In this document: piece by piece, positions 2,692-40,598 of the stretch
Layout: each line of letters starts with the position of its first letter
How positions within the stretch are numbered: the stretch's first letter is position 1
The notes under the pieces: model-generated
The model's database searches: none
Told to the model about the DNA's origin: nothing
Seen by the model: only the letters and a program-made list of their open reading frames with translations
Position numbers and translations under genes: made by a program
Assembly (NCBI GenBank): GCA_903898675.1
Contig: CAIUGM010000004.1
Coordinates: 1 to 64,000, forward strand
DNA: 64,000 nucleotides
Origin: an uncultured Verrucomicrobiota bacterium
GTDB lineage: Bacteria; Verrucomicrobiota; Verrucomicrobiia; Opitutales; Opitutaceae
Direction of reading: 5' to 3'

Positions 2692-2703
2692 GGCGTAAAT
2701 CTT

Positions 2704-12723: not shown

Positions 12724-12727
12724 GGGC

Positions 12728-14359
12728 TCAGAGGTTGCTGGCCCCGGCGAGATCGTAGGCGGACTCGATCGTGGTCCAGTCGCCGGAGAACAGGTGCACC
12801 TTCACGCGCTGGCCGCGGGCGACCAGATCGGCCAGCAGGTCGACCATCGCCAGCCGGTTGAAATCCGGTCGCGCCCGGGCCTCCTCCAGCCACGCCCGCA
12901 CGAGCTGCGTCCCGCGGGCCGAGCACTGCAGCAGGCCGATCCACTCGGCGTCGTAGCCCGCGAAGTCGGCGGAATTGGCTGCGCCAACGAGCGCGGTCTC
13001 CGCATCCAGGAAGTCATGGGCCGGCGCCGCGGTGAGGCGCAGCAGATCGCGCGGCTGGGCCGCCGTCCCCACCGGCGTCCCGCGGATGCGGCGGTCCGCC
13101 GCAATCGCGAAGTCGGCCTCGTCGTCGAGCAGCACCTGCAGGAGGTGGCGCCGGCAGAGGATGTCACCAAAGGCAATCAGGCACGGCCCCTCCAGCGCCT
13201 CGGCCGCGCAGGCGAGCGAAGCGACCTCCCCGGTGGCGGCCCACGCCAGGTTGTCGAAGCGGCGCAGGCCCGTACGCGTGATCGTTTCGGCCCGGTAGCC
13301 CGCGACCGCGTTGAGCTGGCGCACGTTCAGGGCGGCCAGGTTGTCGCACAGCCGGTCCAGCAGCGTCACCCCGTCCACGCGCAGCAGGGTCTTGGGCACC
13401 TCGGTGGTCAGCGGGTGCAGCGCGCCGCTGCCCCGGGTCGCGGCGAGGATGATCGCGCTGCGCTGCGGAGCCGCCGCGAGGTAGCGGGCCTCGGCCGCGT
13501 GCAGTTCTTCGTCCCCCTGCAGCCGGAACACTTCCGCCAGCGGCGCCAGCGTTTCCTCGACGCCCGCCACGCTGCGTTCGCGGGCGATGCGCGCGGCGGC
13601 CTGCTGCATGGCCGGCAGCGCCGCCCGCAGCAGGTGGTTGCCCCAGATCAGCGCGGCCACCCGGCGCTGCGCGAAAACCTCCGCCGGCGTCGTGTAGTAC
13701 TTGGTGGGAATGAGCAGGACCGGATGGCGGTTGGCCCAGGCGTCGAGAAACGCGAGCACCTCGTCGGGCCGGGATTTTGCGCTGTGCACGATGATCGCAT
13801 CCGCGCCGGCGGCCCGGTAGGCCTCCGCCCGCCGCAGCGCCTCCGCCAGCCCCCACCCGGCGATCAGCGCCTCGGTGCGCGCCACGATCACGAAGTCGCC
13901 GTCGCGCTGCGCATCCTTGCCCGCCTTGAGCTTGCCGCAGAACTCGTCCACCGCGGCCAGCGGTTGCGCCGCGCCGCGCAGGAAGCTGTTGGTCTTCGGG
14001 AAAATCTTGTCCTCGATGCACACGCCCGCGATGCCGCGGGTCTCCAGCTTGCGCACGAAGCGCCGGAAATTGTTGAAGTTGCCGTGGCCGGTGTCGCCGT
14101 CGAGCAGGATGGGCGCCGGCGCGGCGTCGGCCATGAACTCCACCACCTCGAGCACCTGCGTCCAGCTGGCCTCGTTGTTGTCGCGCACCCCGAGCGCCGC
14201 GGCGATCGAGAGGCCGCTGGCCCAGAGCGCGGGAAAACCCGCCTCGCTGGCGATGCGGGCCGAGAGGCCGTCGTGGGCCTCCATGATGAAGTCGAGTTGC
14301 TCCGTGCCGAGCAGGGCGCGGAGCCGCGTGGTCGGGCGGAGCGTGGAATCAGAGGCCAT
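12728..14359 (-). CDS. aepX: Phosphoenolpyruvate mutase fused to a nucleotidyltransferase-like domain
   Basis: A 543-residue fusion. Residues 1 to about 290 are PEP mutase: DGDTGHGNFNN (87-97) and the diagnostic EDKIFPKTNS (116-125), which separates mutase from isocitrate-lyase-type relatives. It forms the C-P bond of phosphonopyruvate. About 305-543 resembles a sugar-nucleotidyltransferase, but its signature is degenerate: IILAATRGSGALHPLT in place of LAAGxGxRLxPLT, so the glycine of AAG and the phosphate-binding arginine are altered; PKTLL is kept. Start ATG 14,359 overlaps the aminotransferase stop; a start 24 bases earlier is possible. Fused mutase-nucleotidyltransferase proteins occur in other phosphonate clusters. 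The second domain may be inactive or changed in specificity. Confidence 0.95.
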   Translation of the reverse strand: MASDSTLRPTTRLRALLGTEQLDFIMEAHDGLSARIASEAGFPALWASGLSIAAALGVRDNNEASWTQVLEVVEFMADAAPAPILLDGDTGHGNFNNFRRFVRKLETRGIAGVCIEDKIFPKTNSFLRGAAQPLAAVDEFCGKLKAGKDAQRDGDFVIVARTEALIAGWGLAEALRRAEAYRAAGADAIIVHSAKSRPDEVLAFLDAWANRHPVLLIPTKYYTTPAEVFAQRRVAALIWGNHLLRAALPAMQQAAARIARERSVAGVEETLAPLAEVFRLQGDEELHAAEARYLAAAPQRSAIILAATRGSGALHPLTTEVPKTLLRVDGVTLLDRLCDNLAALNVRQLNAVAGYRAETITRTGLRRFDNLAWAATGEVASLACAAEALEGPCLIAFGDILCRRHLLQVLLDDEADFAIAADRRIRGTPVGTAAQPRDLLRLTAAPAHDFLDAETALVGAANSADFAGYDAEWIGLLQCSARGTQLVRAWLEEARARPDFNRLAMVDLLADLVARGQRVKVHLFSGDWTTIESAYDLAGASNL

Positions 14360-15446
14360 CGAGATAATCCTGCACGGCGGCAAGGAAGGTCCGCAAGTCC
14401 TCCGGGGTCAGCGCCCCGAGGTTGGCCACGCGAAAGGTGTCGGTGCCGGGGAGTTTGCCGGGGTAGAGCGTGATGCCGCGGGCGTAAAGGTGGTCATGCA
14501 GTCCGGAGAAGGAGAAACCCGGCCAGTCGGGCGTAAGGAAGGCGGTGAGCAAGCCCGAATGCAGCTCCCGCGGCAGGAGGGGCACGAAGCCCTGCGCCTC
14601 CAGGCCGGCCAGCATCACCTCGTAGCACTGCCGGTAGCGGGCGGCGCGCACCGGCACCGTCTCGGCCAGCGTTTCCCGGAGGGCCGCGGCCAGGGCATAG
14701 ACCACCGGCACCGGCGGGGTGAACGGAAACTGCCCGGTCGCCTGGCTCCGTTCATGCGTGTGGAGGTTCAGCGCCACGCTCCGGGCCACGCCCGCACTCG
14801 CGGCCAGCGCGGCGCGCCGGGCCAGCACAAAGCTGATCCCCGGCTGGCCCTCCAGGCATTTGTTGGCGCTGCTGATCAGGACATCGACCGGGGTCGTCCC
14901 GAGATGCAGCGGCCGGCCCGCGAACGAGGACATCGCATCGACGATGGAGGTCACGCCCCAGGCCCGGCAAACCGCGCCGAATTCCTCCAGCGGATTCAAC
15001 AGCCCCGTCGTGGTCTCGTGATGAACCCAAAACGCATGCGTGCAGGGTTCGCCGCCGGCCAGCTGCGCGGCGAATTCCGCCGCGGCCGGCCGCGCGGTCC
15101 AGGCGCAACGCCAGATGCGCGCCGGCACGCCGAGCGCCGCGGCGATCGCGCCGGCGCGTTCCCCGTAGGCGCCGTTGTCGAGAATCAGGACGCGGCCGGC
15201 CGGCGGCACGAGCGAACCCAGCGCCGCTTCCATCGCGGCCGTGCCCGGACCCGCGACCAAAATGGCCGTGTGCGTGGCCGGATCGGCCCCGGCCACCGCC
15301 AGCAGGTCGCGACGGATGCCGGCGACCACGGCGGCAAACTCCGCCTCCCGCGGACAGATGTCCGACACGAGCATCGCCGCCTTCACGCCCTCGGTCGTGG
15401 TGGCCGGACCGGGGTTGAGCAGGATCTTGCGCGGGGGAAACGTCAT
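14349..15446 (-). CDS. aepZ: 2-aminoethylphosphonate aminotransferase
   Basis: A 365-residue class V PLP enzyme beginning with ILLNPGPATTT, the typical start of 2-AEP:pyruvate and serine-glyoxylate-type aminotransferases. The PLP lysine lies in SSANKCLEGQPG, and the DAMSSFAG aspartate should contact the PLP nitrogen. In this context it runs in the biosynthetic direction, phosphonoacetaldehyde to AEP. It overlaps pntC upstream by four bases (ATGA) and the PEP mutase gene downstream by about 11, so all are made from one transcript. Cytoplasmic homodimer by family knowledge. Confidence 0.92.
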   Translation of the reverse strand: MTFPPRKILLNPGPATTTEGVKAAMLVSDICPREAEFAAVVAGIRRDLLAVAGADPATHTAILVAGPGTAAMEAALGSLVPPAGRVLILDNGAYGERAGAIAAALGVPARIWRCAWTARPAAAEFAAQLAGGEPCTHAFWVHHETTTGLLNPLEEFGAVCRAWGVTSIVDAMSSFAGRPLHLGTTPVDVLISSANKCLEGQPGISFVLARRAALAASAGVARSVALNLHTHERSQATGQFPFTPPVPVVYALAAALRETLAETVPVRAARYRQCYEVMLAGLEAQGFVPLLPRELHSGLLTAFLTPDWPGFSFSGLHDHLYARGITLYPGKLPGTDTFRVANLGALTPEDLRTFLAAVQDYLDGL

Positions 15447-16192
15447 GGCTGCGGGTCCGGAGTCTGATCCCGAACCTGGATGCGGGGCCAGACTTGTTCG
15501 CGCGCCCGCCGCAAATGCTCCGGCGTATCGATCTCGCACCACTGCAAATCCTCGACCAGGCACACGTCGATCGGGTGCGCGTCGCAGATGGCGTTGAGTC
15601 CGTCCTCGTAATGCGCGCCGGGCGGCAGCGTCGCTTCGACCGCCAGCAGGCGGGTCAGCGCCGGCCGGGACAGGCGGGTGAGCCCGACGAGTTCGCCGCA
15701 ACGCGGCGCGCCCGTCCAGGGACGCTTGCTGAGGTGCGCGAGCCTGCTGCCCCGGGCGTGCACCCACACCTCGTCGTCGCTGGCGGTGAACCCGCTCGCC
15801 AGCAGCGTGTCGCGCCCCGGCGCGGCGAGGAGCCGGGCGGGCGCGCGCCTCTCATAGAGCAAATCGGATTCAACCACCAGGACGTCGCCCGCCGTCGCCC
15901 GGGCCGCGATCAGCAACGAGGCCAGGCTGCCCGTGCCGGAAAAGTCGGGATTTTCCAGCACCCGCACGGCCGGGAATTGCGCCGCGAGATAGGCCCGGTA
16001 GGCTTCCTGCCGCCAGCCGACCACGATGACGATCTCGGTCACGCCCGCGGCGTGCAGCAGCGCCAGCGAGCGACCGAGGATGGGGCGGTCGCCGATCTCG
16101 ACGAGGCCCTTGGGGCGGTCGGCCTGCAGTCGCGACCCCAGGCCCGCGGCCAGAATCACAGCGCATGGAGGGAGGGAGACGACCGGAGACAT
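15443..16192 (-). CDS. pntC: Nucleotidyltransferase, probable CTP:AEP cytidylyltransferase
   Basis: A 249-residue nucleotidyltransferase with a canonical signature AVILAAGLGSRLQ followed by RPKGLVEIG, and an acidic metal site near VVESDL. It is LicC/PntC-like in length. In bacterial phosphonate clusters such enzymes activate AEP with CTP to CMP-AEP, the analogue of CDP-ethanolamine. It is the first gene of the five-gene operon, and its intact signature contrasts with the degenerate copy fused to the mutase. Substrate is inferred from context; a sugar-1-phosphate nucleotidyltransferase is the main alternative. Confidence 0.8.
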   Translation of the reverse strand: MSPVVSLPPCAVILAAGLGSRLQADRPKGLVEIGDRPILGRSLALLHAAGVTEIVIVVGWRQEAYRAYLAAQFPAVRVLENPDFSGTGSLASLLIAARATAGDVLVVESDLLYERRAPARLLAAPGRDTLLASGFTASDDEVWVHARGSRLAHLSKRPWTGAPRCGELVGLTRLSRPALTRLLAVEATLPPGAHYEDGLNAICDAHPIDVCLVEDLQWCEIDTPEHLRRAREQVWPRIQVRDQTPDPQP

Positions 16193-16289: not shown

Positions 16290-17042
16290 ATGCTCTCTCC
16301 GACGCAGCACCACGATTTCGAACGGGATGGCTTTCTCATCCTCCGCGGGTTTTTCCCTCCAGCCCGCATGGCCGCCGTGGGCGAGGCGGTCGCCGCCCTG
16401 GCCGCCCGGCCGGCCCGGATCGGCCATGAAATGGCTTACTATGAGAACAGCGTGACCGCGCCGGAGCAACGGGTGCTCTCGCGCATCGAGCGGTTCATTG
16501 AAGAGGATGCGACGCTCGCGGATTTCATCCTGCGCTCCGGCCTCACCGAACTCGCCGCCGAGGTGCTGCAGGCGCCCGCGGTGTTGTTCAAGGAGAAGAT
16601 AAATTTCAAGCTCCCCAACGGCCAGGGCTTCACGCCGCATCAGGACATCCAGCCGGGCTGGGACACTTACGCCGGCTACTTCATTTCGGTCCTCGTCACC
16701 ATCGACCCGAGCACCGAGGAGAACGGCTGCATCGAGCTCGCCGCCGGCCACCACCAGCGCGGCTGGCTGGGCGAGCGCATGAAGCCGCTCACGCCGGAGC
16801 AGTTGGTCGGGGTCAAATTCACCAAGTATCCCACCGCGCCCGGCGACATTGTGATCTTCGACTGTTTCGCCCCGCACCAGTCCGCGCCGAACCTGACGAC
16901 CAGCGCGCGGCGCAATCTTTACCTGACTTACAACCGGGCGGCCGAGGGTGATTTTCGCGCCCGTTACTTTGCCGACAAGCGGGCGGCGTTTCCGCCCGAC
17001 GCCGAGCGCAAGCCCGGCCAGCGCCTTGAATTCAAAGTCTGA
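16290..17042 (+). CDS. PhyH-family Fe(II)/2-oxoglutarate dioxygenase, possible AEP hydroxylase
   Basis: A 250-residue dioxygenase with the metal triad visible: HQDIQPGW supplies His and Asp, and APHQS supplies the distal His, followed by RRNLYLTY whose Arg should bind 2-oxoglutarate. The family includes PhnY, which hydroxylates AEP at C1. The gene diverges from the AEP operon across 97 bp and leads the export operon, so hydroxylation of AEP or of the finished lipid is the best guess. The family is clear; the substrate is inference. Other PhyH members act on fatty acids or antibiotics, so a lipid-chain hydroxylase is a real alternative. Confidence 0.7.
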   Translation: MLSPTQHHDFERDGFLILRGFFPPARMAAVGEAVAALAARPARIGHEMAYYENSVTAPEQRVLSRIERFIEEDATLADFILRSGLTELAAEVLQAPAVLFKEKINFKLPNGQGFTPHQDIQPGWDTYAGYFISVLVTIDPSTEENGCIELAAGHHQRGWLGERMKPLTPEQLVGVKFTKYPTAPGDIVIFDCFAPHQSAPNLTTSARRNLYLTYNRAAEGDFRARYFADKRAAFPPDAERKPGQRLEFKV

Positions 17043-17049
17043 TCCCACC

Positions 17050-18603: not shown

Positions 18604-18629
18604 CCCGTCCGGCCCAGTTATCTCGTCCG

Positions 18630-20709: not shown

Positions 20710-20714
20710 GCGCC

Positions 20715-21881: not shown

Positions 21882-22991
21882 ATGAGCCTTCCTCCTCCCC
21901 GCGAAGTCGCGATCCAAGTCTCCGGCCTGAACCATCACTTCGGCAAGGGCGAAGCCCGCAAGCAGGTGCTCTTCGACAACAACCTCGTGGTCCGGCGCGG
22001 CGAGATTGTCATCATGACCGGCCCTTCCGGCTCGGGCAAAACCACCCTGCTCACCCTGATCGGCACGCTCCGCGCCATCCAGGAGGGCAGCATCCGCATC
22101 AACGGGCAGGAACTCGCGGGTCTGCCGCCCCCCGCGCAGGTGCTGATGCGGCGCGACATCGGGTTCATCTTTCAGGCGCACAATCTCCTCAACGCCCTGA
22201 GCGCACGGCAGAACGTCCGGATGGCCGTTGAGCTCACCGCCACGCCCCGGGGCGACTACGACCGGGTCGCCGACGCCATGCTGGACGCGGTGGGGCTGTC
22301 TGATCGCGCCGCCTACAAGCCGCGCAACCTCTCCGGCGGCCAGCGCCAGCGCGTCGCCATTGCGCGCGCCCTCGTCAACCGGCCGCGCCTCGTGCTCGCC
22401 GACGAGCCCACCGCGGCCCTCGACAAGGACTCCGGCGCCAACGTCGTGCACCTGCTCCGCGAACTCGCGAACAACCACGGCACCACGGTCATGATCGTCA
22501 CGCACGACAGCCGCATCATCAGCGTGGCCGACCGGATCGTGAACATGGTCGACGGCCAGATCGTCTCCGACGTGCGCATCAAGGAAACGATGGTGATCTG
22601 CGCCATCCTCAGGAAATGCTCCGTGTTCAAGGAAATGAGCCCGTCGGACCTGACCGACATCGCCCAGAAGATGACGGAGGAGCATTTCGCGGAAAACGAG
22701 GACATCGTCCGCGCCGGCGACACCGGCGACAAGTTCTACGTCATCGCCCGCGGCACCACCAACATCATCATCGAGTCCGCCGGCACCACCCGGGCCGTGG
22801 CCAAGCTCGGGGAGGGGGATTTCTTCGGCGAAGTCGCCCTCCTGCGCGACCAGCCCCGCAACGCCACCGTCACCTGCCGCGAGCCGGTCGTCGTCTATTC
22901 GCTTTCCAAGGAAAATTTCCTCGCCGCGATGAAAAGCCACAAGACCTTCGATGACCAGATGTCGAACATGCTCTTCACCCGCGGGGGCTGA
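21882..22991 (+). CDS. DevA-type ABC ATPase fused to a cyclic-nucleotide-binding domain
   Basis: A 369-residue fusion. Residues 1 to about 225 are a MacB/LolD/DevA-type ATPase with Walker A GPSGSGKTT, signature LSGGQRQR, Walker B LVLADEPTAALD and a switch His in VTHDSR. About 240-365 is a Crp-type cyclic-nucleotide-binding domain with the phosphate-binding cassette FGEVALLRDQPRNAT, which keeps the Glu and Arg that hold the ligand. Normal DevA is about 230-250 residues, so this gene carries an added sensor. It implies that export is gated by a nucleotide such as cAMP or cGMP, though the ligand may differ. It ends the permease operon and overlaps the exostosin-like gene. Confidence 0.9.
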   Translation: MSLPPPREVAIQVSGLNHHFGKGEARKQVLFDNNLVVRRGEIVIMTGPSGSGKTTLLTLIGTLRAIQEGSIRINGQELAGLPPPAQVLMRRDIGFIFQAHNLLNALSARQNVRMAVELTATPRGDYDRVADAMLDAVGLSDRAAYKPRNLSGGQRQRVAIARALVNRPRLVLADEPTAALDKDSGANVVHLLRELANNHGTTVMIVTHDSRIISVADRIVNMVDGQIVSDVRIKETMVICAILRKCSVFKEMSPSDLTDIAQKMTEEHFAENEDIVRAGDTGDKFYVIARGTTNIIIESAGTTRAVAKLGEGDFFGEVALLRDQPRNATVTCREPVVVYSLSKENFLAAMKSHKTFDDQMSNMLFTRGG

Positions 22992-24048
22992 TTCGCCGGT
23001 TAGTCACGCGGACTCCCGCCTGACTCCCTGGGAGTGGCCGGCGGCGCTGTTTCGCGTGGCGCGCGACCGCGCCTACGAGTCGTTCGGCACCCTGCCGGCG
23101 GCGCGCGACACGCCGGCGGGCCGTTATTTTTCCAGCAAGCTGCTCGGGCTGGGCTGCCGCCACAACGGAAGCCGCGGGTATGTCCTGTATCACGGCAATT
23201 TCTTCGACCCCCGCACTTACGCCGGCTTGGAGCAGGGCGGCATCGCGTGGATTCGCGCTGACGAACTCGCCCGCTTCAACCGCGAGATCCTGCCGCGCCT
23301 CGAGCGCCCCATCGTGCTCGTCACCGCCGAGTGCGACTGGTCGGTGCCGCGCGACACGCCGGCCGAGTGCGAGACGCTGGCGCGCAGCGGCCGGATCCGC
23401 CGGTGGTTTGCGAACAACCCCAGCGACGACACCTACGGCGACCTGCTCACCCCGCTGCCGATCGGCGTGAACTACAGCCTCAAGCACACGCTCTCGCGAA
23501 CCGGCGACCGGCCGGACGACCACTATTACCGGGACGACGCCATCGCTCCCGTGGCGCAGGACGCGATCTGGGCCGCCGCGGCCGCCGTGCCGCTCGCCGC
23601 GCGCCGGCCGCTCGCCTTCGGGGATTTCTGCCTGAACAATTCCTCCCGGAGCCGGCGTTTCGGCGAGTCCCGCGCCGATATCCACGCCGCGCTCCGGCCG
23701 AGCGGCTGCGTCGTGTTTCCCGAGCGGCGGCTGCCGCCCGGCCAGCTGGTCGCCGCCTACGGCCGCCACGCCTTTGTCGTCAGCCCGCATGGCAACGGGC
23801 TCGACTGTTACCGCACGTGGCTGGCACTGATCTGCGGGTGCATCGTCATCGTCAAGCGCTCGCCCCTTGACCGGCTCTACGCCAACCTGCCGGTCGTCAT
23901 CGTCGAGCGCTGGGACGAGGTCACCCCCGCGAACCTCGGCCACTGGCTCGGGCGTTTTGGCCCGCAGTTTGACCGCACCCGCCTGCAGCAGGTGCTGTCG
24001 CTCGCCTATTGGCAGGCGGAGCTGGCGCGCGTGGCCGCCGGTCCCTGA
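22951..24048 (+). CDS. Exostosin-like glycosyltransferase, second copy
   Basis: A 365-residue protein with the block VVSPHGNGLDCYRTW then LICGCIVIV, matching the paralogue at 2704-3861. The first half is soluble and carries no signal peptide. Start ATG 22,951 lies 41 bases inside the ATPase-CNB gene. No nearer ATG follows; GTG 23,056 would shorten it by 35 residues. Its 3' end overlaps the convergent PAP2 gene by 43 bases. It is the last gene of the export operon, which suggests that glycosylation and export of the product are co-regulated. Donor and acceptor are unknown. Confidence 0.58.
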   Translation: MTRCRTCSSPAGADSPVSHADSRLTPWEWPAALFRVARDRAYESFGTLPAARDTPAGRYFSSKLLGLGCRHNGSRGYVLYHGNFFDPRTYAGLEQGGIAWIRADELARFNREILPRLERPIVLVTAECDWSVPRDTPAECETLARSGRIRRWFANNPSDDTYGDLLTPLPIGVNYSLKHTLSRTGDRPDDHYYRDDAIAPVAQDAIWAAAAAVPLAARRPLAFGDFCLNNSSRSRRFGESRADIHAALRPSGCVVFPERRLPPGQLVAAYGRHAFVVSPHGNGLDCYRTWLALICGCIVIVKRSPLDRLYANLPVVIVERWDEVTPANLGHWLGRFGPQFDRTRLQQVLSLAYWQAELARVAAGP

Positions 24049-24959
24049 CGCCCAACCGGCCGGCGCAAGACCGCCCACACCCCGAGCGCCAGGGCCATGC
24101 CCGCCAGTCCGTCGACCACGTAATGGTGGTTGAGGTAGACCGAGGAGAAAAACACCAGCAGCCAGAAACCGGTGGCAAAGCCGCGCAGCGAGCGGAACTG
24201 CCAGGCATAGAGGACCGCGAGAAAGGTCTGCCCCACATGCAGCGAGGGAATGGCGCCGAAGACATTGGCGTTTCGCCCGTAATAACCGGCAAACCAGTGC
24301 ACCCCCAGGAGCGCGTCGAAGCGGGCCGCGCCCGCCGCCTCCGGTGCGGCCGAGAGGACCGCCGGCCCCAGTCCGTAGTGGTCCACATACCAGGGGGGCG
24401 CCGCCGGATAGGCGAGATACACCGCGTAGGCGATCAGGTTGAGCCAGAGCATCGCCCACATCACCAGGTCGGACCCGGGGAGCTTCGCCTTGAAGCACCA
24501 CCAGCCGGACACGGCAAAGAAGACCGGGATGAAAAGCAGGTAGGCCGCCCCGCACACGAGGTCCAACCCCGCGTACGTGTGACCCTGCAGCCACCGGGCG
24601 GGCGTCACCAGATGATCGCCCGCGAAAATACCGAACCAGCTCAGTTCCCAGCGGTACGGCTCCGCCACCCGCACGCCGGCCCGCAGGGCCCCGGCCCAAT
24701 ACCGCTGCGCATCATAGACCGAGCCCACGATGAGGATCGGGAGGAAAAAAAGAAACAGCGGGCGGGCGCGCGGTCCGGCATAGTAGCCCGCCAACACCAC
24801 CCCGGCCAGCCAGCCGTGGTCCGGGCGCAAGCCGCCGAGAACGGCGTGCGCCGTCAAAAAGCCCAGCGCGCCCAGGCCCGGCCACCAGCGCGCCGCCGCG
24901 CCCAGACCGTGCCACCAATCCCGCCACTCCCTGCCCAGCGCCGCTCCCGTGGTGGTCAT
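24006..24959 (-). CDS. Aur1-like PAP2 protein, probable inositol-phosphoceramide synthase
   Basis: A 317-residue polytopic membrane protein of the PAP2 superfamily, inositol-phosphoceramide-synthase branch. The motifs GAIPSLHVGQTF and NHHYVVDGLAG give the catalytic His-His-Asp set, and the preceding stretch (HYGLGPAVL through FDALLGVHWF) resembles fungal Aur1 and bacterial IPC synthases. Known role of that branch: transfer of phosphoinositol from phosphatidylinositol to ceramide. Start ATG 24,959 overlaps the GNAT-gene stop by four bases; the longer upstream frame shadows that gene. Being in one operon with a sphingoid-base synthase supports this role. A plain lipid phosphatase is the main alternative. 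Confidence 0.75.
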   Translation of the reverse strand: MTTTGAALGREWRDWWHGLGAAARWWPGLGALGFLTAHAVLGGLRPDHGWLAGVVLAGYYAGPRARPLFLFFLPILIVGSVYDAQRYWAGALRAGVRVAEPYRWELSWFGIFAGDHLVTPARWLQGHTYAGLDLVCGAAYLLFIPVFFAVSGWWCFKAKLPGSDLVMWAMLWLNLIAYAVYLAYPAAPPWYVDHYGLGPAVLSAAPEAAGAARFDALLGVHWFAGYYGRNANVFGAIPSLHVGQTFLAVLYAWQFRSLRGFATGFWLLVFFSSVYLNHHYVVDGLAGMALALGVWAVLRRPVGRQGPAATRASSACQ

Positions 24960-26083
24960 AGCGCCTTTTCGTAGAGCCGCAGGGTTTGCGCGCGCCAGCC
25001 CCCGATCCGCTCGATCAGCGCGATGGTCTCGTGATTGTCCTCCAGGATCCACGAGAACTCCATCTGCCGCAGGTGGGGCGCCCGGATTAGCAGCTGATGA
25101 TAGCGCCGGATGAAAAGGATCGGCAGCCCCATGCGCCGCGATTCCTTGCGCACGCCCAGCAGGAAGAGCCGCAGGCCGGTCACGCGCTTGCGCTGCGTGA
25201 GCAGCGCCCACCAGCCCAGGGGCCACAACCGGCCGCCGATGCGCTGGATGATCTCGTTCATGTTGGGAATCGCCACCATCATGCCGAGGGGTTCCCCGTC
25301 GCGTTCCGCGAACAGGATGAGCTCGGGATCGATGAACAGCCGGTAAGCCGAGGCATACTTCAGGAATTCCGCCTGCGTGATCGGCTGTGCGCCCCAGTTG
25401 TCCCGCCAGGCCTCGGCAAAGATCCGCGCCATCCGGCCCGCCTCGGCGGGCAGGTCGCGCATGTTAAGCGGGCGCACCGTCACCCCCTGGGCCGCCCGGT
25501 CCGCCACGGCACACATGCGGTCGAACGGCTCGGACTTGAAATCGGCGGCGCCGAGCCGGAAGACGAACAGGTCCTTCGCCTTGCCGTAGGCCGCCGCCTC
25601 CAGCAGGCCCCGGTAGTACGGCGGCGTGTAGCCCATGCCCGCCATCGGGGCATGCTCAAAGCCGTCGAGCAAAATGCCGGCCTCGTCCTGCACGCTGAAA
25701 TTGGCCGGACCCCGCGCCACCTTGAGGCCCTGGTCCCGCAGCCAGACCTCCGCCGCACCCAGGAGCGCGGCGGCCGTGGCCGGATCGTTCTCGCATTCAA
25801 AGAAACCAAAAAAGCCCGCGCCGTCCGCGTGCGCGGCGAGATGACGCCGGTTGTGCAGGGCGGCGATCCGCCCCACCGGCTCGGCCCCGCGGTAGGCGAG
25901 GAAGAACTCGCCGGTGGAGTGCTGGAAAAAATCGCCCTTCGCCGGATCCAGTTGCGGCCGCACGTCCTCCAGGAGCGGCGGCACCCAGGCCGGCAGCCCG
26001 CGGTAGAACCGCGCCGGCAGCCGCAAAAAAACCTCCCGCGCCGACCGGTCCCGCACCGGCACAATCCGCACCGGCCCGCTCAT
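24956..26083 (-). CDS. GNAT-fold acyltransferase-like protein, candidate ceramide synthase
   Basis: A 375-residue protein with an N-terminal domain (FLRLPARFYRGLPAWVPPLL, FFECENDPA) and a C-terminal GNAT-like half (ILFAERDGEPLGMMVAIPN, FSWILEDN). It belongs to a widespread family often annotated only as GNAT or hypothetical, which to my recollection includes the bacterial ceramide synthase of Caulobacter. I could not check that. Its position between the sphingoid-base synthase and the Aur1-like gene, with ATGA overlaps on both sides, strongly suggests the N-acylation step from sphingoid base to (dihydro)ceramide. Cytoplasmic; no signal or transmembrane helix seen. Confidence 0.6.
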   Translation of the reverse strand: MSGPVRIVPVRDRSAREVFLRLPARFYRGLPAWVPPLLEDVRPQLDPAKGDFFQHSTGEFFLAYRGAEPVGRIAALHNRRHLAAHADGAGFFGFFECENDPATAAALLGAAEVWLRDQGLKVARGPANFSVQDEAGILLDGFEHAPMAGMGYTPPYYRGLLEAAAYGKAKDLFVFRLGAADFKSEPFDRMCAVADRAAQGVTVRPLNMRDLPAEAGRMARIFAEAWRDNWGAQPITQAEFLKYASAYRLFIDPELILFAERDGEPLGMMVAIPNMNEIIQRIGGRLWPLGWWALLTQRKRVTGLRLFLLGVRKESRRMGLPILFIRRYHQLLIRAPHLRQMEFSWILEDNHETIALIERIGGWRAQTLRLYEKAL

Positions 26084-29000
26084 ACGCGCGCCTCCCGCCC
26101 CTGGGCCATGATCTCGGCCAGGGCGTCGGCCGTCGCCCGCAATTGCCCCTCGGTGTGTTCCGCCGTGACGAAGAAACGCAGGCGGGCCTTCCCCTCCTCC
26201 ACCGCGGGATGGAAGATCGGTTGCACGTTGATGCCGCGCCGGCCGAGGGCCTGGCTCACATGCAGGGCCAGATCGGACGAACCCGTCACGCAGGGCACCA
26301 CGGCAGAGTGCCGGCTCAAGCCGGTGTCGAGGCCGCGCGCCCGGCACAGCTCGCGAAAATAATCGCTGCGTGCCTGCAGGCGTTGCGGCAGCTCCGGGTG
26401 GGCCGCGAGGAGCCTGAGCGCGGCCAGGGCCGCGGCCGCATTGGCCGGCGGCAGGCCCACGCTGTAAATGAAACCGGGCAGCGTGTAGCGCAGGTAATCG
26501 ATCAGCGCCCCCTCGCCCGCCACGTAGCCGCCGCAACTCGCCAGGGTTTTCGAGAGCGTCCCCATCCACAGGTCCACGGCCGCGCGCGGCGTGCGAAAAT
26601 GCTCCCCGGCTCCGCGCCCGGCCGCCCCGAGCACCCCCAGCGAGTGCGCCTCGTCGACGAGGAGCATCGCGTCATGCCGCTCCTTCAGCGCAATCAACTC
26701 GTCCAAGGGCGCGAGGTCGCCGTCCATGCTGTAGACGCCCTCGATGGCGATCAGCACCCGGCGCGCCTTCCATCGCTCGGCTTCGAGCAGCCGGGCGAGC
26801 GCCGCGACATCGTTGTGCGGAAAGGACAACCGGCGCGCCCCCGAAAGACGCGCCCCGCTCACGATGCAGTCATGCGCGAGGCTGTCGTGGATGACGAGGT
26901 CCTCCGGCCCGAACAGGTGACCGATCAGGGTGACGTTGGTCGCGTGCCCGCTGACCAGGGTGAGGGCGTCGTCACAGCCGAGGAAATCCGCGAGCGCGCG
27001 TTCCAACTCGCCGTGCAACGGCCGCTCGCCCGACGCCACCCGGCTCGCCGAGGCCGAGGTGCCGTAGGACTGCACCGCGTCCGCCGCCGCCCGGTTGACC
27101 GCCGGATGACCCGCGAGACCGAGGTAATTGTAGGAGGAGAAATTGATAAACTCCCGGCCCGCCATCCGTGTGGTCGCGCCCGCCACACCCTCATGCTGCT
27201 GAAAATACGGCATCGTGAAACCCGCCGCCGTCAGGGCGGCCTTGCGGGCGGCGAGCTCCTTCACTTCGGGCCAGGCCGCCGCGCCCGGCCGGGCCTCGGC
27301 CACGGCGCCCAGCACCCGCGCCGCCACGCCCCGCCATTGCGCCACGAGCGCGCCTTGCGCATCGCGCAGGTCGAAATCCCCCCGCAACCGGTCCGCCGTG
27401 GTTTCGCTGAGACGGCCCGTGCAGGACAAATCCCCCGCCGTCGGCCACGGTGCCAACTGACGGAATTCGGCAAAACCCGTCGCAATCGCCGACTCGCCGC
27501 GCGTTACCGCCAGCCAGTAAAGCGCCAGTTGCAGCATCCCGTCGATCAGCACCACGGGATCAGCCCGGCCCGCAATCCGCCCGCTCACCTGGGTCGCGCC
27601 CACGTCGGGAACCTCCGCCAGCGCCTGCAGCGAGGGTCCGTGAAAACCAAATTCGTCGTAGAATTGCCCGAGCGTGAGCCGGCCGCGCACCAGCGGTTCC
27701 CCGGCGAGGATCGCCAAAGGCCCGGTGGCGGCTTCCACCGCCCCGCTGGCGAGCACGGCTCCCCCGGTGCGCAAAACAAATCCGCCCGCGGCGTCGTCCA
27801 CGCGCTCCACGGTGACGCCAACGGCCGGCACTTCACCCGGCGCCAACACCTGGCCGCGCACCAGACGCACCGGCACGGGCCGTTCCATCAGCGCCACGGT
27901 GACCAGCGCCGCGAGCGGCAGCAGGGCGCGCCCACCGGGGCGGTGTTCCGGCAGCCAGGCATGCGTGGGGGCCGCAAACGTATGGCTGACCACGGGGGCC
28001 GGGGCGGGGGGCGCGGCCTGCTCCAGGAACGCCGCAAGTTCCCGCACGGTCAGGGCGGGGGTAAAAAGCGAACGGGGCGGAGTGAGGCCAGGCAATTTGT
28101 GGCCGAGCACGGTGATCAGCTCCAGGGTGGTCAGTGAATCGAAGCCCAGGTCAGCGAAAAATCGCTGGCCGGGTCGCACTTCCGTGGCCTCTCGCGCCGT
28201 AACTTCCGCGATGGCCGCGATCAGGAAATCCATGCGGCGCGACGAACCCGGAGCGGCGACCGCCGGTGGCAGCCCGGGCCGCGGCGCCGCGGGAACCGCC
28301 CGCCGCGTCAGGCTCTCGTCGATCAGCCAGAAGGGCCGGGTCACCAGCGGCGAAGGCGGCAGCGTGACGAGCCGGCCCCCGGTCGTCCCGCCGCCCGCCG
28401 GCACCGGGGGGATTTCGCCCCGACCCAAGGCTTCGCGGGCGACGGCGAGGCGCGTGAGCAAGTCTGCGGTGGAAGCCCCCAGCACGACCACTTGCACCGG
28501 CTCGCGCCGCCGTTGCGCGAGCGTGAAAGCCACGTCCTCAACCGGGGCCGGGGTCGCCCGCAGGGCCGCGACCAGTTCCCCGCAATAGGCCGCGAGCAAT
28601 TCGACGTTCGGCGCCGAGAGTTCGCAACGCCAGGGGCCGGCGGACGGCGCCGCGGGGCGCCCGGCCGCCGGGGGCGCCTCTTCCAGGACCACATGCACAT
28701 TGGTGCCGCCAAAACCAAAGGCGCTGACGCCCGCGCGCCGCAACGTTCCCGCCGGACTCGTCCACGCTTCGGCTTGGGTCGGCACGCGCAACCAGGCCGC
28801 GGCACCGGCAAACTCCGCGCGCAGCCCGCCGGCCAGCGGCTGCGGCGGAATGACGCCGTCGCGCACGGCCAGCACCGCCTTGAGGAGCGAGGCCATGCCC
28901 GCCGACGCGAGCCCGTGGCCGATGTTGGCCTTGATGGAGGTGACGGGCACCGGCTCACGCACATGCGGGCCGAAGACCTTCGTCAGCGCCTCAAGCTCGA

Positions 29001-30036
29001 TGCGGTCGCCGGCCTGCGTCGCGGTGGCATGCGCCTCAAGCAGGCCGACCGTGCCGGGGTCGAACCCGGCCGCCTGCCAGGCCTGCGCGATCGCCGCACC
29101 CTGCCCGGCGGCCTGCGGCGTCAACGGACCCGCCCCGCCGCCGTCGTTGTTCATCGCGATGCCGCGGATCACCGCGACGATGCGATCACCGTCGCGCTGC
29201 GCGTCGGCCAGCCGCTTGAGCACGACCGCGCCGACGCCCTCGCCGAGGACAAAGCCGTCCGCCTCCGCCTGGAACGGCCGGCATGAGTCGGTGAAAGACA
29301 GCGCGCCGATCCGGCTGAAACACACCATCATGATCGGATCAAGCTGCACATAGACGCCGCCCACGAGCGCCGCGTCCACGGTGCCGGCGCGCAGGTGCAG
29401 GACGGCCTCGTGCAGGGCCGCCAGCGCGGAGCTGCAAGCGGTGTCGAGCGCGAAGGCCGGCCCCGTGAAATCGAAGGCCTGGCTCACGTTGGCCGCGATC
29501 ATGTTGAGCTGCTGGCCGACGATCGAATAGGCCTGGATAGGCGCGAGGGCCGCCGTGAGCTCCGCAAGCTGCGCCGCAGTCAGCGGGGGCGCGATCCCGC
29601 TGCGACCCTGGGCGTCCAGGGGGATGTTCACCGCCCCCGCCACCAGCGTGCGGTGGTCCGAACTGCTCGCGCCCACATATACGCCGACGCGCCCGCCGGC
29701 GAGGCGGCGGCTCGCGTAGCCCGCGTCCTCCAGCGCCTGCCGGGAGATTTCCAGCATCAGCCGCTGCTGCGGATCCATGACCTTCGCGCGCTTGGGGGAT
29801 AAGCCGAAGAACTCCGGGGCAAACCGGTCGATGTCATCCATGAACGCCGCGGCTTGCGCCGGCGTGCGGTTGGCCAGGCGCAGGTTTGGACTGTAAACCA
29901 GCGAGTGATCCCAACGCCGGCCGGGCACCGGCCCCGCCTGCACCGCCCCGGCCAGGATCATTCGCTGAAAAGCCGGGGCGTCGGCCGCGCCGGGAAAACG
30001 GGCTCCCACGCCGAGAATTGCCACCGGTTCATGCAT
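26080..30036 (-). CDS. KS-ACP-DH-alpha-oxoamine synthase megasynthase (sphingoid base synthase-like)
   Basis: A 1318-residue fusion. Domains: ketosynthase 1 to about 455 (Cys201 in DTACSSA, His336 in EAHATATQ, His374 in NIGHG); carrier protein about 600-675 (Ser634 in GFDSLTTLEL); dehydratase-like double hot-dog about 685-910 (His698 in HRPGGRALLP, Asp832 and Gln836 in IDGMLQ); PLP-dependent alpha-oxoamine synthase about 935-1318 (DEAHSLGVLG, Lys1163 in LSKTLAS). All catalytic residues of these four domains are visible. There is no acyltransferase, ketoreductase or enoylreductase domain, so malonyl loading must come in trans. The last domain condenses an acyl thioester with an amino acid, as serine palmitoyltransferase does. 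Start ATG 30,036 preferred over 30,090. Confidence 0.9.
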   Translation of the reverse strand: MHEPVAILGVGARFPGAADAPAFQRMILAGAVQAGPVPGRRWDHSLVYSPNLRLANRTPAQAAAFMDDIDRFAPEFFGLSPKRAKVMDPQQRLMLEISRQALEDAGYASRRLAGGRVGVYVGASSSDHRTLVAGAVNIPLDAQGRSGIAPPLTAAQLAELTAALAPIQAYSIVGQQLNMIAANVSQAFDFTGPAFALDTACSSALAALHEAVLHLRAGTVDAALVGGVYVQLDPIMMVCFSRIGALSFTDSCRPFQAEADGFVLGEGVGAVVLKRLADAQRDGDRIVAVIRGIAMNNDGGGAGPLTPQAAGQGAAIAQAWQAAGFDPGTVGLLEAHATATQAGDRIELEALTKVFGPHVREPVPVTSIKANIGHGLASAGMASLLKAVLAVRDGVIPPQPLAGGLRAEFAGAAAWLRVPTQAEAWTSPAGTLRRAGVSAFGFGGTNVHVVLEEAPPAAGRPAAPSAGPWRCELSAPNVELLAAYCGELVAALRATPAPVEDVAFTLAQRRREPVQVVVLGASTADLLTRLAVAREALGRGEIPPVPAGGGTTGGRLVTLPPSPLVTRPFWLIDESLTRRAVPAAPRPGLPPAVAAPGSSRRMDFLIAAIAEVTAREATEVRPGQRFFADLGFDSLTTLELITVLGHKLPGLTPPRSLFTPALTVRELAAFLEQAAPPAPAPVVSHTFAAPTHAWLPEHRPGGRALLPLAALVTVALMERPVPVRLVRGQVLAPGEVPAVGVTVERVDDAAGGFVLRTGGAVLASGAVEAATGPLAILAGEPLVRGRLTLGQFYDEFGFHGPSLQALAEVPDVGATQVSGRIAGRADPVVLIDGMLQLALYWLAVTRGESAIATGFAEFRQLAPWPTAGDLSCTGRLSETTADRLRGDFDLRDAQGALVAQWRGVAARVLGAVAEARPGAAAWPEVKELAARKAALTAAGFTMPYFQQHEGVAGATTRMAGREFINFSSYNYLGLAGHPAVNRAAADAVQSYGTSASASRVASGERPLHGELERALADFLGCDDALTLVSGHATNVTLIGHLFGPEDLVIHDSLAHDCIVSGARLSGARRLSFPHNDVAALARLLEAERWKARRVLIAIEGVYSMDGDLAPLDELIALKERHDAMLLVDEAHSLGVLGAAGRGAGEHFRTPRAAVDLWMGTLSKTLASCGGYVAGEGALIDYLRYTLPGFIYSVGLPPANAAAALAALRLLAAHPELPQRLQARSDYFRELCRARGLDTGLSRHSAVVPCVTGSSDLALHVSQALGRRGINVQPIFHPAVEEGKARLRFFVTAEHTEGQLRATADALAEIMAQGREARV

Positions 30037-30174
30037 GAATATTGAAACTAATAACCGGGGCGAAGGCCCACCACGGCAAGCGATTTCCAACAGCCGCGGG
30101 GAACACCGCCAGTTGACGCGGCGCCTTTCTTTGTGCCACGCTCGCCCGCACGGACGCTCCGCCGCGTTTCCCCG

Positions 30175-31005
30175 ATGACTTTACAAGATCAACACGTGCT
30201 CATTACCGGCGGATCCAGCGGCATCGGCTTGGAATTGGGCCGGCAAGCCGCGGCCGCCGGGGCCCGGGTGAGCCTCGTCGCCCGTGATTCGGCCAAGCTC
30301 GCCGCGGCGCGCGCCGCCATCCACGCGGCTCAGCCCGCGGCCGCCGACGTGGTGATCGTGTCCGCTGATGTCGCGATCGAGGCGGAAATTCTGGCCGCGC
30401 TGCAGGCGGCGGAGCGGGTGCACGGCCCGGTGGACGTCCTCATCACCTCGGCCGGCATCGCCCGCCCGGGTTATTTCGAGGAAGTTCCCGTGGCCGTCTT
30501 CGAGCGCACAATGGCGGTGAACTATTTTGGGACCCTGTATCCCCTCAAGGCCGTCGTGCCGGGCATGCGCCGGCGCGGCCGCGGTGCCGTGGTGCTCATT
30601 TCCTCCGGGGCCGGCCTGGTCGGGCTCTTCGGCTACACGCCCTACGCCCCGAGCAAGTTCGCCCTCCGCGGCCTCGCCGAGGCCCTGCGCGGCGAGCTGA
30701 AGTCAACCGGCGTGAGCGTGACGATTGTCTATCCGCCGGACACCGACACTCCGCAGCTCGTCGAGGAGAATCTTACCAAGCCGGTGGAGACCAAGGCCCT
30801 CACCGCGGGCGGCGGCCTCTGGACCGCCGAGGCGGTGGCCCGGGTGACGCTCGCCGGCGTGCAGCGCGGCCGATTTGCCATTACTCCGGGGTTCCAGCTC
30901 ACCGCCCTCGCCTGGCTGCACAGTGTGATCGCGCCGGTGCTCAACTGGAGTTTCGACCGCATCGCCCGCAAGGCGCGGCGCGGCGCGGCGACCGGATCCC
31001 CATGA
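30175..31005 (+). CDS. SDR, probable 3-ketosphinganine reductase
   Basis: A 276-residue short-chain dehydrogenase. The NADP site is TGGSSGIG and the catalytic Tyr/Lys are in YTPYAPSKFALRG. It carries the YPPDTDTPQ stretch characteristic of 3-ketodihydrosphingosine reductases (human KDSR, yeast Tsc10), with a C-terminal hydrophobic segment. Start ATG 30,175 fits the Rossmann-fold N-terminus; ATG 30,133 would only add 14 residues of unusual composition. It diverges from the megasynthase gene across 138 bp and supplies the expected next step, reduction of the 3-keto group. Its stop overlaps the CDP-alcohol phosphotransferase start (ATGA). Confidence 0.83.
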   Translation: MTLQDQHVLITGGSSGIGLELGRQAAAAGARVSLVARDSAKLAAARAAIHAAQPAAADVVIVSADVAIEAEILAALQAAERVHGPVDVLITSAGIARPGYFEEVPVAVFERTMAVNYFGTLYPLKAVVPGMRRRGRGAVVLISSGAGLVGLFGYTPYAPSKFALRGLAEALRGELKSTGVSVTIVYPPDTDTPQLVEENLTKPVETKALTAGGGLWTAEAVARVTLAGVQRGRFAITPGFQLTALAWLHSVIAPVLNWSFDRIARKARRGAATGSP

Positions 31006-31730
31006 GCGCTTTCGATGCGTGGGCCGGGCTGGCCCTGCCGGTCGTCTGCGCCCTGCTGGTGATGGTGGCGGCGCTCTCGGCTCCGCACGAACGCCACGCC
31101 CGCGTCACCCGCGAGGGCGGCACGGCGTTTCTGGGCGAAAATATCATGCACCGGGGCTACGCCTGGGTGGACCGGCTGGCGCGCCTCGCCCTGCGCCTCG
31201 GGCTGGGACCGAATACCGTCTCCTGGCTTTCCCTTCTCCTGGGACTGGCGGCGGGGTTCGGACTCGCGGGCGGACACTTCGGCCTGGCCGCCTGGCTGCT
31301 GGCCCTGAGCGGCCTGGGCGACGGCATGGACGGGGCGATGGCCCGGCGGCAGGGCGGCGGCTCCCGCGGGGGTGCCGTCCTCGACTCGGCGCTCGACCGC
31401 TACGTGGAATTTTTCTGCTTCGCCGGCCTGGTCTGGTTTTTTCGTGGAACGGCCGCGCTGCAACTGCTCACGCTGGCCGCGCTCCTCGGCAGTTTCATGA
31501 TCACCTACTCGACGGCGAAGGCCGAGGCCCTGCAGGTCACCCCGCCCCGCGGCTGGATGAAGCGCGCCGAGCGGATCGTCTGGCTCGTCGCGGGCACCGC
31601 CCTCGCGGCGGCCCTGCCGCTGGGCGGATATCCGGGTCACCTCGTGCTCGTCGGGGTGCTGGCCGTGATCGCCCTCTTCGCCAACCTGTCGGCCATCCTG
31701 CGGCTGCACGCGCTGAGCCGGGCGGCGTGA
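31002..31730 (+). CDS. CDP-alcohol phosphatidyltransferase, candidate phosphatidylinositol-phosphate synthase
   Basis: A 242-residue polytopic enzyme with a fully canonical motif D107-x2-D110-G111-x2-A114-R115-x8-G124-x3-D128-x3-D132. Known family reaction: transfer of a phosphatidyl or phospho-alcohol group from a CDP substrate. The gene is coupled to the ketosphinganine reductase and lies close to inositol-3-phosphate synthase. In Bacteroides a similar neighbourhood encodes phosphatidylinositol-phosphate synthase, which feeds inositol-phosphoceramide synthesis. That role is inferred here; no phosphatidylinositol-phosphate phosphatase was recognised in the window. Confidence 0.8.
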   Translation: MSAFDAWAGLALPVVCALLVMVAALSAPHERHARVTREGGTAFLGENIMHRGYAWVDRLARLALRLGLGPNTVSWLSLLLGLAAGFGLAGGHFGLAAWLLALSGLGDGMDGAMARRQGGGSRGGAVLDSALDRYVEFFCFAGLVWFFRGTAALQLLTLAALLGSFMITYSTAKAEALQVTPPRGWMKRAERIVWLVAGTALAAALPLGGYPGHLVLVGVLAVIALFANLSAILRLHALSRAA

Positions 31731-32380
31731 TTGACCCGGAGCCCGCCCGCATGTCGCTCGTCCACACCTGGGATTATTGCCGCCGCCAGGGCCGCGTGCT
31801 GGTGCGTCACCTGCGCTACGCCGACGCCGCCTGGAGCGAGTCCGGCCGGCGCGCGCGCGCCGAGGCGCTGGCCACGCTGTTCCGCACGGTCAACGCCTGG
31901 CTGCGCGAGAGCGGCGCCGAGCATTGGATCTGCTACGGCACCCTCCTCGGCTGGTGGCGGGAAAAACAAATCCTGCCGCATGACCGGGACGTGGATTTTG
32001 CCGCGCCTGGCCCTGCCTTTGCCCAGTTGAAGGCCGCCGCCGGGCGGCTGCCCCGGGGCTTTGTGCTGCACGACACCTCGCACCGGCACGGCGGCCCCAA
32101 GCTCTATGTCAGTTTCCGGGGCTGGGAAGCGGACATCTACTTTCTGGCGGAACACGAGGGTAAGCTCAGCACAATCCTACGCAGCCCCAATCCCGGCGAC
32201 ACCGCCCCGTTTCCCCGCGAGTGGTTTTACCCGGCGCGCACGGTGGATTTCCTCGGCGAACCAACGCAGGTGCCGGCCGAGCCGGAATCGTACCTGAAGC
32301 ACACCTACGGCTACACGGGACCGGACGCGGAGCTGGACCCGGTCACGCGTTATTTCCGCCCGGTCAGGCGCCGCGAATGA
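31727..32380 (+). CDS. LicD/fukutin-family phospho-group transferase
   Basis: A 217-residue LicD-domain protein. The diagnostic block [22 protein letters not shown] holds the metal-binding DxD-type residues, and a second conserved part is [14 protein letters not shown]. LicD moves phosphocholine from CDP-choline to cell-surface sugars. Because CMP-AEP should be made by this organism, AEP is a plausible group here (inference). GTG 31,727 overlaps the previous stop by four bases and is preferred; ATG 31,751 is the alternative. The 3' end overlaps the convergent inositol-phosphate synthase by 17 bases. Confidence 0.83.
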
Positions 32381-33473
32381 AAGCCCCCATGCGTTCCCGC
32401 GCCTCGTGGTCGGGGTACTGGACCGGCGGCGACTTCATCAAATAACTCGAGGGACCGTCAAGCTGGCCGGCCAGCCCGCGGTCCAGTGCGAGCTTGATGC
32501 AGCGGACCGCATCGATCACCACCCCGGCTGAGTTGGGCGAGTCCCAGACCTCGAGCTTCACCTCGCACTTCAGGGGCACGTTGCCGAAGGTCGTTCCCTC
32601 CATGTAAATGTGGCACCACTTGCGGTCCTGCAGCCAGGGCACGTAATCGCTCGGGCCCACGTGCACGTTCTCGGCCGGCAGCGGCGCGCCGAGCTGGCTG
32701 GTCACGGCGTTGGTCTTGGAGATTTTCTTGGATTCAAGCCGCTCGCGCTCGAGCATGTTGAGGAAGTCGGTGTTGCCGCCGAAATTGAGCTGGTAGGTCT
32801 TGTCGAGGCGCACGCCGCGCTCGTGAAACAGGTTCACCAGCGCCCGGTGCGTGATGGTGGCGCCGACCTGGGACTTGATGTCATCGCCGATGATCGGGAG
32901 CCCGCGGTCCTTGAAGCGCTGCTGCCACTGCGGCTGGGAGGCAATGAACACCGGGATGCAATTGACCAGGCCGCAGCCGGCCGCCAGCACCTGCTCGACA
33001 TACCACCGGCTCGCTTGCTCCGAACCCACCGGCAGGTAATTCACCACGACGTCCGTGCCGGTCTCCCGGAGAATGCGCGCCACGTCGACGGCCGGACCGG
33101 AGTCCTCAGTGATCCGCTCGCGCAGGTATTTGCCGAGCCCGTCGAGCGTGGGGCCGCGCTGCACGGTGACGCCGGTGGCGGGGACCGTTGCAAACTGGAT
33201 CGTGTTGTTCGGGGCGGCGACAATGGCCTCGGCCAGGTCCTTGCCGACCTTGTTCGCGTCTACGTCAAAGGCCGCGCTGAACTCGACGTCGCCGACATGG
33301 TAGCCGCCCAGGTTGACGTGCATGAGTCCGGGCACCGCCTCCCCCTCGGGAGCCGCGCGGTAAAAGTGGACGCCCTGCACCAGGGCAGAGGCGCAATTGC
33401 CCACGCCGATCAGGGCGACCCGGATTTTGCGCCGTCCGGAGGGGGACGGCACAGGTGAGGAAACAGAAGCCAT
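32364..33473 (-). CDS. ino1: Inositol-3-phosphate synthase
   Basis: A 369-residue NAD-dependent myo-inositol-1-phosphate synthase of the short bacterial/archaeal type. The dinucleotide site is [16 protein letters not shown] and conserved active-site stretches are [16 protein letters not shown] and [14 protein letters not shown]. It turns glucose 6-phosphate into inositol 3-phosphate, the head-group precursor for inositol lipids. ATG 33,473 precedes the NAD site by a normal distance; ATG 33,527 would add a low-complexity tail. Transcribed toward the sphingolipid genes, it supplies the inositol expected for phosphatidylinositol and inositol-phosphoceramide. An osmolyte role is possible but less likely here. 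Confidence 0.92.
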
Positions 33474-33532
33474 GGGTGAAGGGGGAAAGATCCCGGTGAG
33501 CGTGCTGGCCACCCGCTCGCCCATCAAGCGCC

Positions 33533-40455: not shown

Positions 40456-40493
40456 TTGAGCAAGAGCACTGGCGCAGATCGCGTATTTCTTTG

Positions 40494-40547: not shown

Positions 40548-40598
40548 CGGGCCGGAACAGGCCATAGGGTGGCAGACCCAAGGTGAATGAAACCGCCT

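Follow-up and report, generated by a model that had tools for sequence, protein, structure and literature searches.

A fused ketosynthase-carrier-dehydratase-aminoketone synthase of Opitutaceae and relatives, with a proposed role in sphingolipid synthesis

The DNA analysed here, referred to as the window, is a stretch of 64,000 nucleotides (contig CAIUGM010000004.1, assembly GCA_903898675.1) from an uncultured bacterium of the Opitutaceae (Verrucomicrobiota). On its minus strand, positions 26080..30036 encode FUS, a protein of 1318 residues counted from an ATG at 30036, in which a ketosynthase (KS, residues ~3-490), an acyl carrier protein (ACP, ~604-671), a dehydratase (DH, ~690-925) and an alpha-oxoamine synthase (AOS, ~943-1312) follow one another in a single chain. 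The reading frame is intact, with a single stop at its end, and the open frame extends to 30090 (26080-30090, minus), which gives 1336 residues if translation begins at a TTG. The first-pass annotation had described this domain order, and it was confirmed by Pfam, with matches to the ketoacyl synthase N and C domains (5.3e-76 and 7.4e-35) and KAsynt_C_assoc (2.3e-9) in the KS, followed in order by PP-binding (1.1e-8), PS-DH (2.6e-7) and Aminotran_1_2 (1e-46). Neither an acyltransferase (AT) nor a ketoreductase (KR) was found in FUS by Pfam at E<=1e-3, as had been claimed, and no enoylreductase (ER) was found in the same search.

The statement that all catalytic residues are present also held in an alignment of nine FUS rows, one of which (L034) is cut by a contig end, starts inside FUS and lacks the KS and ACP residues. 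C201, H336 and H374 of the KS and S634 of the ACP (numbering of the 1318-residue form) are invariant in the 8/8 homologues that reach them, while H698 and D832 of the DH and H1055, D1128, K1163 and R1287 of the AOS are invariant in 9/9 rows. These residues, and the HxxxGxxxxP motif around H698, are those which we take to be catalytic in these families. The catalytic His, Asp and Arg of serine palmitoyltransferase (SPT) are named in PMC6148460. For the DH region, an AlphaFold model of 260 residues (mean pLDDT 89.3) gave 7tzl as its best PDB match (3.5e-13), and the top 20 matches were all dehydratase domains of polyketide synthases (PKS), some being dehydratase-cyclases or mutants. As modelled, the domain is a PKS dehydratase, double-hotdog in fold and carrying the motif His and the Asp.

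The search for the same domain order proposed by the first-pass annotation recovered the fusion in eight other genomes, giving nine distinct genomes with the window, all of them Opitutaceae, Opitutae or Verrucomicrobia by title; the frame is whole in seven of the eight and cut in L034. One of the strains bearing the fusion is Verrucomicrobia bacterium IMCC26134 (CP011265.1). At order level, a search with the DH region matched 5/223 genomes (E<=1e-3, window included) with open frames of 1325-1372 residues, and at phylum level it matched 8/387, namely the same five and three weak ones (L018-L020, E 4e-5 to 7e-4). A peptide-pattern scan of 84,980 species returned 56 stretches, 7 of which encode a relative (Opitutaceae 4, Verrucomicrobia 2, Opitutae 1), three of these coinciding with the order-level matches G014, G193 and G134; the scan used two strict patterns, which diverged fusions elsewhere would escape. 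Since eight other genomes share the same fused frame, a chance fusion or a misassembly is unlikely.

The last domain had been read as a homologue of SPT, and here the phylogeny led to a revision. In a tree of 44 AOS rows (midpoint root, long-branched BioF and ALAS rows, Sphingomonas and eukaryotic SPTs left out), the nine FUS domains form one group (100/99), adjacent to a Streptomyces fusion (96/95), within a 17-row RkpG clade (100/99) made up of 9 FUS domains, 5 RkpG types, 2 fused proteins and 1 Nocardia protein, and this clade is separate from the SPT side, KBL, BioF and ALAS. Constraining the FUS AOS to group with four SPT or SPT-like references was rejected (p-AU 9.3e-6), as were groupings with BioF (p-AU 4.7e-11, 2 references) and KBL (p-AU 7.9e-5, 2 references), so that the outcome which the first-pass annotation had set against its own proposal, an AOS falling with one of the latter two families, did not occur. 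The SPT references are the solved S. multivorum enzyme and three proteins whose labels are ours and not those of their records, those of B. finegoldii and Prevotella being called SPT from 56-59% identity to the S. multivorum enzyme, and that of Roseomonas being called SPT-like from its ACP and lipid-gene neighbours. Judged by its sequence, the FUS AOS is of the RkpG type and not an SPT proper.

Pairwise identities run in the same direction. Among proteins of a plasmid collection, the FUS AOS is 59-60% identical to those of Caballeronia and Paraburkholderia, 54% to one of a Pseudomonas and 49-51% to those of Sinorhizobium and Shinella, and among fused proteins it is 59% identical to that of Streptomyces anthocyanicus and 52% to that of Planktothrix; identity to the two other AOS enzymes of its own genome is 35-36%, far below the plasmid-collection matches. 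Its company is also that of RkpG, with a type I KS on the same chain and, next to the gene, a short-chain dehydrogenase/reductase (SDR) 46% identical to S. meliloti RkpH. Four annotated loci of Proteobacteria have the AOS either directly beside a type I PKS of 2464-2541 residues or one gene off, and these loci also hold an SDR and capsule or polysaccharide-export genes. We take the S. meliloti pSymB locus among them to be the RkpA/RkpG/RkpH arrangement, under names which its record does not carry. The same names appear in PMC3908369 and PMC4881576, the latter stating that the products of rkp-1 contribute to the synthesis of a specific lipid carrier.

The locus is like rkp-1 of Sinorhizobium and the WcbR-type capsule loci in its AOS, its SDR and its type I KS partner, and it differs from them in how the parts are joined. 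The scanned S. meliloti PKS (2502 residues) has the order KS-AT-DH-ER-KR-ACP, shared by the Caballeronia PKS with an added methyltransferase, and RkpA and RkpG are separate proteins in S. meliloti, whereas FUS is one chain. The RkpA/WcbR architecture was considered for FUS itself and set aside, as FUS is without AT, ER and KR and its ACP precedes the DH. Closer in build are the AOS-terminated PKS of Planktothrix (KS-AT-DH-ER-KR-ACP-AOS) and S. anthocyanicus (KS-AT-ACP-AOS), the nearest fused relatives, which carry KS and AOS on one chain but keep the AT and, where a DH is found, have it before the ACP. The S. anthocyanicus protein is the closest fused relative in the AOS and KS trees alike, being again adjacent to FUS in the latter (19 rows) with lower support (88/88). 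A further chain of this kind, DH-KR-ACP-AOS in 1345 residues, is encoded on a plasmid of Streptomyces sp. NBC_00158 (L064 3085-7122). The FUS order stands as described, and an AOS also ends PKS-like chains in Planktothrix and two Streptomyces. Within the Verrucomicrobiota, an AOS was matched at E<=1e-75 in 13/387 genomes, five being those with FUS; of the eight others, two were inspected, one (G338) with an AMP-binding-ACP-AOS chain and one (G445) with an RkpA/RkpG-like pair. A chain of 1119 residues with AMP-binding, ACP and AOS domains, from another Verrucomicrobiota family, adjoins a type I PKS (L090 9824-13180).

Downstream of FUS on the same strand lie a tandem-GNAT-fold protein of 375 residues (24956..26083) and a PAP2_3 protein (24006..24959, likely ATG at 24959, the open frame running to 25226). 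The ATG of the GNAT gene overlaps the FUS stop and that of the PAP2 gene overlaps the GNAT stop, in both cases as ATGA, as in coupled translation. The GNAT-fold protein has no Pfam or NCBIfam match at E<=1e-3, and its model, with a mean pLDDT of 66, resembles tandem GNAT proteins at fold level only. The PAP2 protein matched only two PDB sequences at E<=0.1, both AUR1 (best 1.5e-15), and scored 162.7 bits on the phosphoinositol dihydroceramide synthase model NF052609, below the cut-off of 480. It carries the motifs IPSLH and NHHYVVD, presumably catalytic, and looks like a protein of the AUR1/BT_1522 type, a candidate inositol-phosphorylceramide synthase. AUR1 is the fungal inositol-phosphorylceramide synthase; the likeness to it belongs to a partner gene and not to FUS itself.

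Upstream of FUS and divergent from it, on the plus strand, are the RkpH-like SDR (30133..31005, likely ATG at 30175), whose second-best PDB match is the 3-ketodihydrosphingosine reductase TSC10, and a CDP-alcohol phosphatidyltransferase found by Pfam (31002..31730), which resembles phosphatidylinositol-phosphate (PI-phosphate) synthase and whose best NCBIfam scores of 106.6 (cut-off 180) and 90.9 bits (cut-off 170) are both under threshold. They are followed on the minus strand by Ino1, a myo-inositol-1-phosphate synthase (32364..33527; 540 bits, cut-off 638). An open frame between the last two genes (31019-32377, plus) matches LicD at its end (4.7e-12). The lipid setting suggested by the first-pass annotation gains support from these GNAT-fold, AUR1-like, PI-phosphate-synthase-like and Ino1 neighbours, which point to sphingolipids. 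Inositol-sphingolipid-type genes of this kind set the locus apart from rkp loci, and none are found among the annotated neighbours of the S. anthocyanicus and Planktothrix fusions. Their grouping is like that of Bacteroides thetaiotaomicron BT_1522-1526, for which PMC9246714 describes an AUR1-like inositol-lipid synthase in one cluster with a PI-phosphate synthase and Ino1, and their testing by deletion. According to the same text the SPT there (BT_0870) lies outside the cluster, unlike FUS, the SDR and the GNAT gene, which are inside the locus here.

Further from FUS, on the plus strand, lie an OEP gene (16948-18603), an HlyD gene (18600-19550), two MacB/FtsX permeases (19579-20709 and 20643-21854) and an ABC ATPase with a cNMP-binding domain (21882..22991), which together may form a lipid exporter. 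The locus also holds a stand-alone ACP (158-523) with a FabF-like ketoacyl-ACP synthase (KAS, 520-1806), both plus; a glycosyltransferase-like protein with a GINT1_N domain (5562..7385 as frame limits, plus; 5.1e-24), a domain of glucosamine inositolphosphorylceramide transferase 1 that suggests a glycosylated inositol sphingolipid; a second CDP-alcohol phosphatidyltransferase (8464..9534, minus); and a PhyH dioxygenase (16290..17042, plus), possibly a chain hydroxylase. The ACP-KAS pair, put forward in the first-pass annotation as a possible partner of FUS in trans, is at most a candidate for this part: it shares the locus with FUS, but a similar pair adjoins the PAP2 gene in G026, where the DH-region search gave no fusion. 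Three open frames on the minus strand (11566..15767) make up a 2-aminoethylphosphonate set, with a thiamine pyrophosphate-dependent decarboxylase-like protein (11566-12723), a phosphoenolpyruvate mutase fused to an NTP transferase domain (12728-14383) and a PhnW-type aminotransferase (14349-15767 as frame limits); the set also occurs beside the fusion in L037, and the lipid may carry a phosphonate head group. Elsewhere in the window, one open frame (39085-40602, minus) joins NMT1/THI5-like and pterin-4a-carbinolamine dehydratase domains, and 1957-2691 (minus) matches CDP-OH_P_transf (5.1e-6) where it overlaps a called frame of 608 residues (1846-3672, plus) with no Pfam match, a simple gene call that is likely wrong.

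Most of the immediate neighbourhood is conserved with the fusion. In the other eight loci, FUS, GNAT, PAP2 and the ABC ATPase were each matched in 8/8, as were OEP, HlyD and the two permeases (the OEP of L034 reaching the contig end), and the SDR in 7/8, the contig of L034 starting inside FUS. Among the 223 order-level genomes, PAP2 was matched in 9 at E<=1e-3, and the 6 at E<=1e-90 are the five with FUS and G026, while GNAT was matched in 12 at E<=1e-3, the 6 at E<=1e-60 being the five with FUS and G216. The genes matched around FUS in these loci are lipid and envelope genes by type, and this, together with the overlap of the FUS and GNAT genes, makes it very improbable that FUS releases a secondary-metabolite aminoketone unrelated to membrane lipids, an explanation that would suit the AOS-terminated PKS chains of Streptomyces and Planktothrix loci and the rank of the S. 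anthocyanicus protein as closest fused relative.

Taken together, FUS is probably an aminoketone synthase, fused and lacking an AT, that extends an acyl chain and supplies an inositol-sphingolipid locus with its long-chain base. The sequences themselves show how the domains are ordered, that the active sites are intact, how AOS, SDR and PAP2 are related to known proteins and that the genes are conserved together; from this we infer the individual reactions, the amino acid, the AT and KR acting in trans and what becomes of the double bond. An acyl chain would be loaded onto the FUS KS and lengthened by two carbons from malonyl-ACP charged in trans, a trans-acting reductase would yield the 3-hydroxyacyl-ACP, and the FUS DH would remove water to give the 2-enoyl-ACP. 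The C-terminal pyridoxal phosphate (PLP) domain would then join the acyl group to an amino acid, of which serine is the likeliest, and set free a 3-keto long-chain base. A PLP enzyme that receives its acyl group from an ACP has a parallel in the SPT with AcpR of Rhodobacteria (PMC9386255, in its available text), which differs in that the ACP is free and the chain carries neither KS nor DH, and in that it belongs to another AOS clade as judged with the four references. The divergent SDR would reduce the 3-keto group, the GNAT-fold protein would N-acylate the amine, the AUR1-like PAP2 protein would transfer phosphoinositol made with Ino1 and the PI-phosphate synthase, and the MacB/HlyD/OEP system would export the lipid.

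Serine is favoured indirectly: the group to which an AUR1-like enzyme attaches phosphoinositol is a C1 hydroxyl, present in bases derived from serine and absent from those derived from alanine or glycine. The SDR is placed on the 3-keto base rather than used as the missing KR because RkpA has a KR of its own and RkpH nevertheless stays a separate SDR. A double bond is proposed because the DH is intact and the FUS chain has no ER, although an ER acting in trans could take it away again. The unsaturated base put forward in the first-pass annotation is plausible in this respect, with the DH directly before the AOS, and the long-chain base is possibly 4,5-unsaturated. More tentatively, FUS may provide sphingosine-type (4,5-unsaturated) bases with no need of a desaturase, the bond being set in the acyl-ACP by the DH of FUS immediately ahead of serine addition by its PLP domain, and by kinship the RkpA/G/H-type lipid carrier of rhizobia and Burkholderiales may be a sphingoid base as well; we regard this extended proposal as possible but doubtful.

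The RkpG/RkpH type of the AOS and SDR could also mean that the product of FUS is a sphingoid-like lipid anchor carrying a surface glycan, as has been suggested for rkp-1 and the K antigen, instead of ceramide for a bulk inositol sphingolipid. The locus does contain glycan genes (GT4, Stealth, GINT1_N, GT2-like and LicD), and several of them were matched in other loci. On the other hand, the AUR1-like PAP2, PI-phosphate-synthase-like and Ino1 genes suit inositol phosphorylceramide, the GNAT protein had no match among the 16 rkp-like proteins compared, nor with the short GNAT of the Pseudomonas locus, and among the annotated window genes no KpsMT-type capsule exporter was seen next to the MacB-type exporter and the glycan genes. 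A glycan anchor is considered unlikely.

Several further observations weigh against assigning the long-chain base of an inositol sphingolipid to FUS. On NCBIfam models its AOS scored highest on bioF (362.1 of 426.45 bits), ahead of KBL (304.2 of 460) and three SPT models (294.7 of 640, 271.6 of 500 and 199.8 of 670), reaching no cut-off; however, two RkpG-type proteins and the Streptomyces AOS likewise score best on bioF (335-360 bits), so these scores cannot separate the AOS families. The literature searched yielded no tested amino-acid specificity for RkpG, and no PIP phosphatase like BT_1525 was found among the open frames scanned with Pfam. The GNAT-fold protein as N-acyltransferase, in the role of a ceramide synthase, is a guess made on a model of modest confidence. 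The genome of the window also holds two further AOS genes, one (C14) grouping with E. coli KBL and the other (C5:98432) placed, like eight C5-type rows of relatives grouped with it, on the SPT side, and the latter could be the real source of sphingoid bases. In addition, G026 has PAP2, two CDP-alcohol transferases, an Ino1-like gene (29%) and ACP-KAS, the ACP-KAS pair being similar to 158-1806 and adjoining the PAP2 gene, and searches of this genome with the DH region and GNAT gave no match. Inositol head-group genes therefore do not need FUS, and those of G026 are perhaps served by a C5-type enzyme.

If the true long-chain base came from the C5 enzyme, FUS would make a different, accessory aminoketone lipid. 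Besides the head-group genes of G026, this is consistent with the place of the C5 AOS with the SPT references (100/98) and its higher scores against the SPT models (371 and 335 bits, both short of the cut-off). It is FUS and not the C5 AOS, however, that overlaps the GNAT gene, is co-conserved with GNAT and PAP2 and lies beside the SDR, and neither PAP2 nor GNAT was matched in at least one of the relatives that have a C5-type AOS (G018, tree row L012); we hold this division of labour to be improbable. The surroundings of the C5 AOS (C5:90001-108000, L029) contain an ACP-FabA fusion, a KAS, an SDR and glycosyltransferases, FUS-like parts on separate genes.

With the long-chain-base role for FUS as the reading preferred here, FUS looks like a conserved variation on the RkpA/RkpG theme, set in a coherent lipid locus and seemingly turned to sphingolipid use. 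In the open-access literature searched (titles and the beginnings of abstracts), no description of a bacterial KS-ACP-DH-AOS sphingolipid synthase was recognised. Spt-like genes have been reported from metagenomes in 22 Verrucomicrobiota metagenome-assembled genomes, according to PMC11334938. If the proposed function is correct, a single polypeptide would extend the chain, dehydrate it and condense it with an amino acid to give a sphingolipid backbone, where other organisms are known to carry out the amino-acid joining step with a separate, smaller enzyme. It would also provide an oxygen-independent route to a 4,5-unsaturated base and, for the Verrucomicrobiota, a candidate pathway including head-group genes, and the question of which lipid the rkp-1 genes make would become directly testable, with sphingoid bases as the products to look for.

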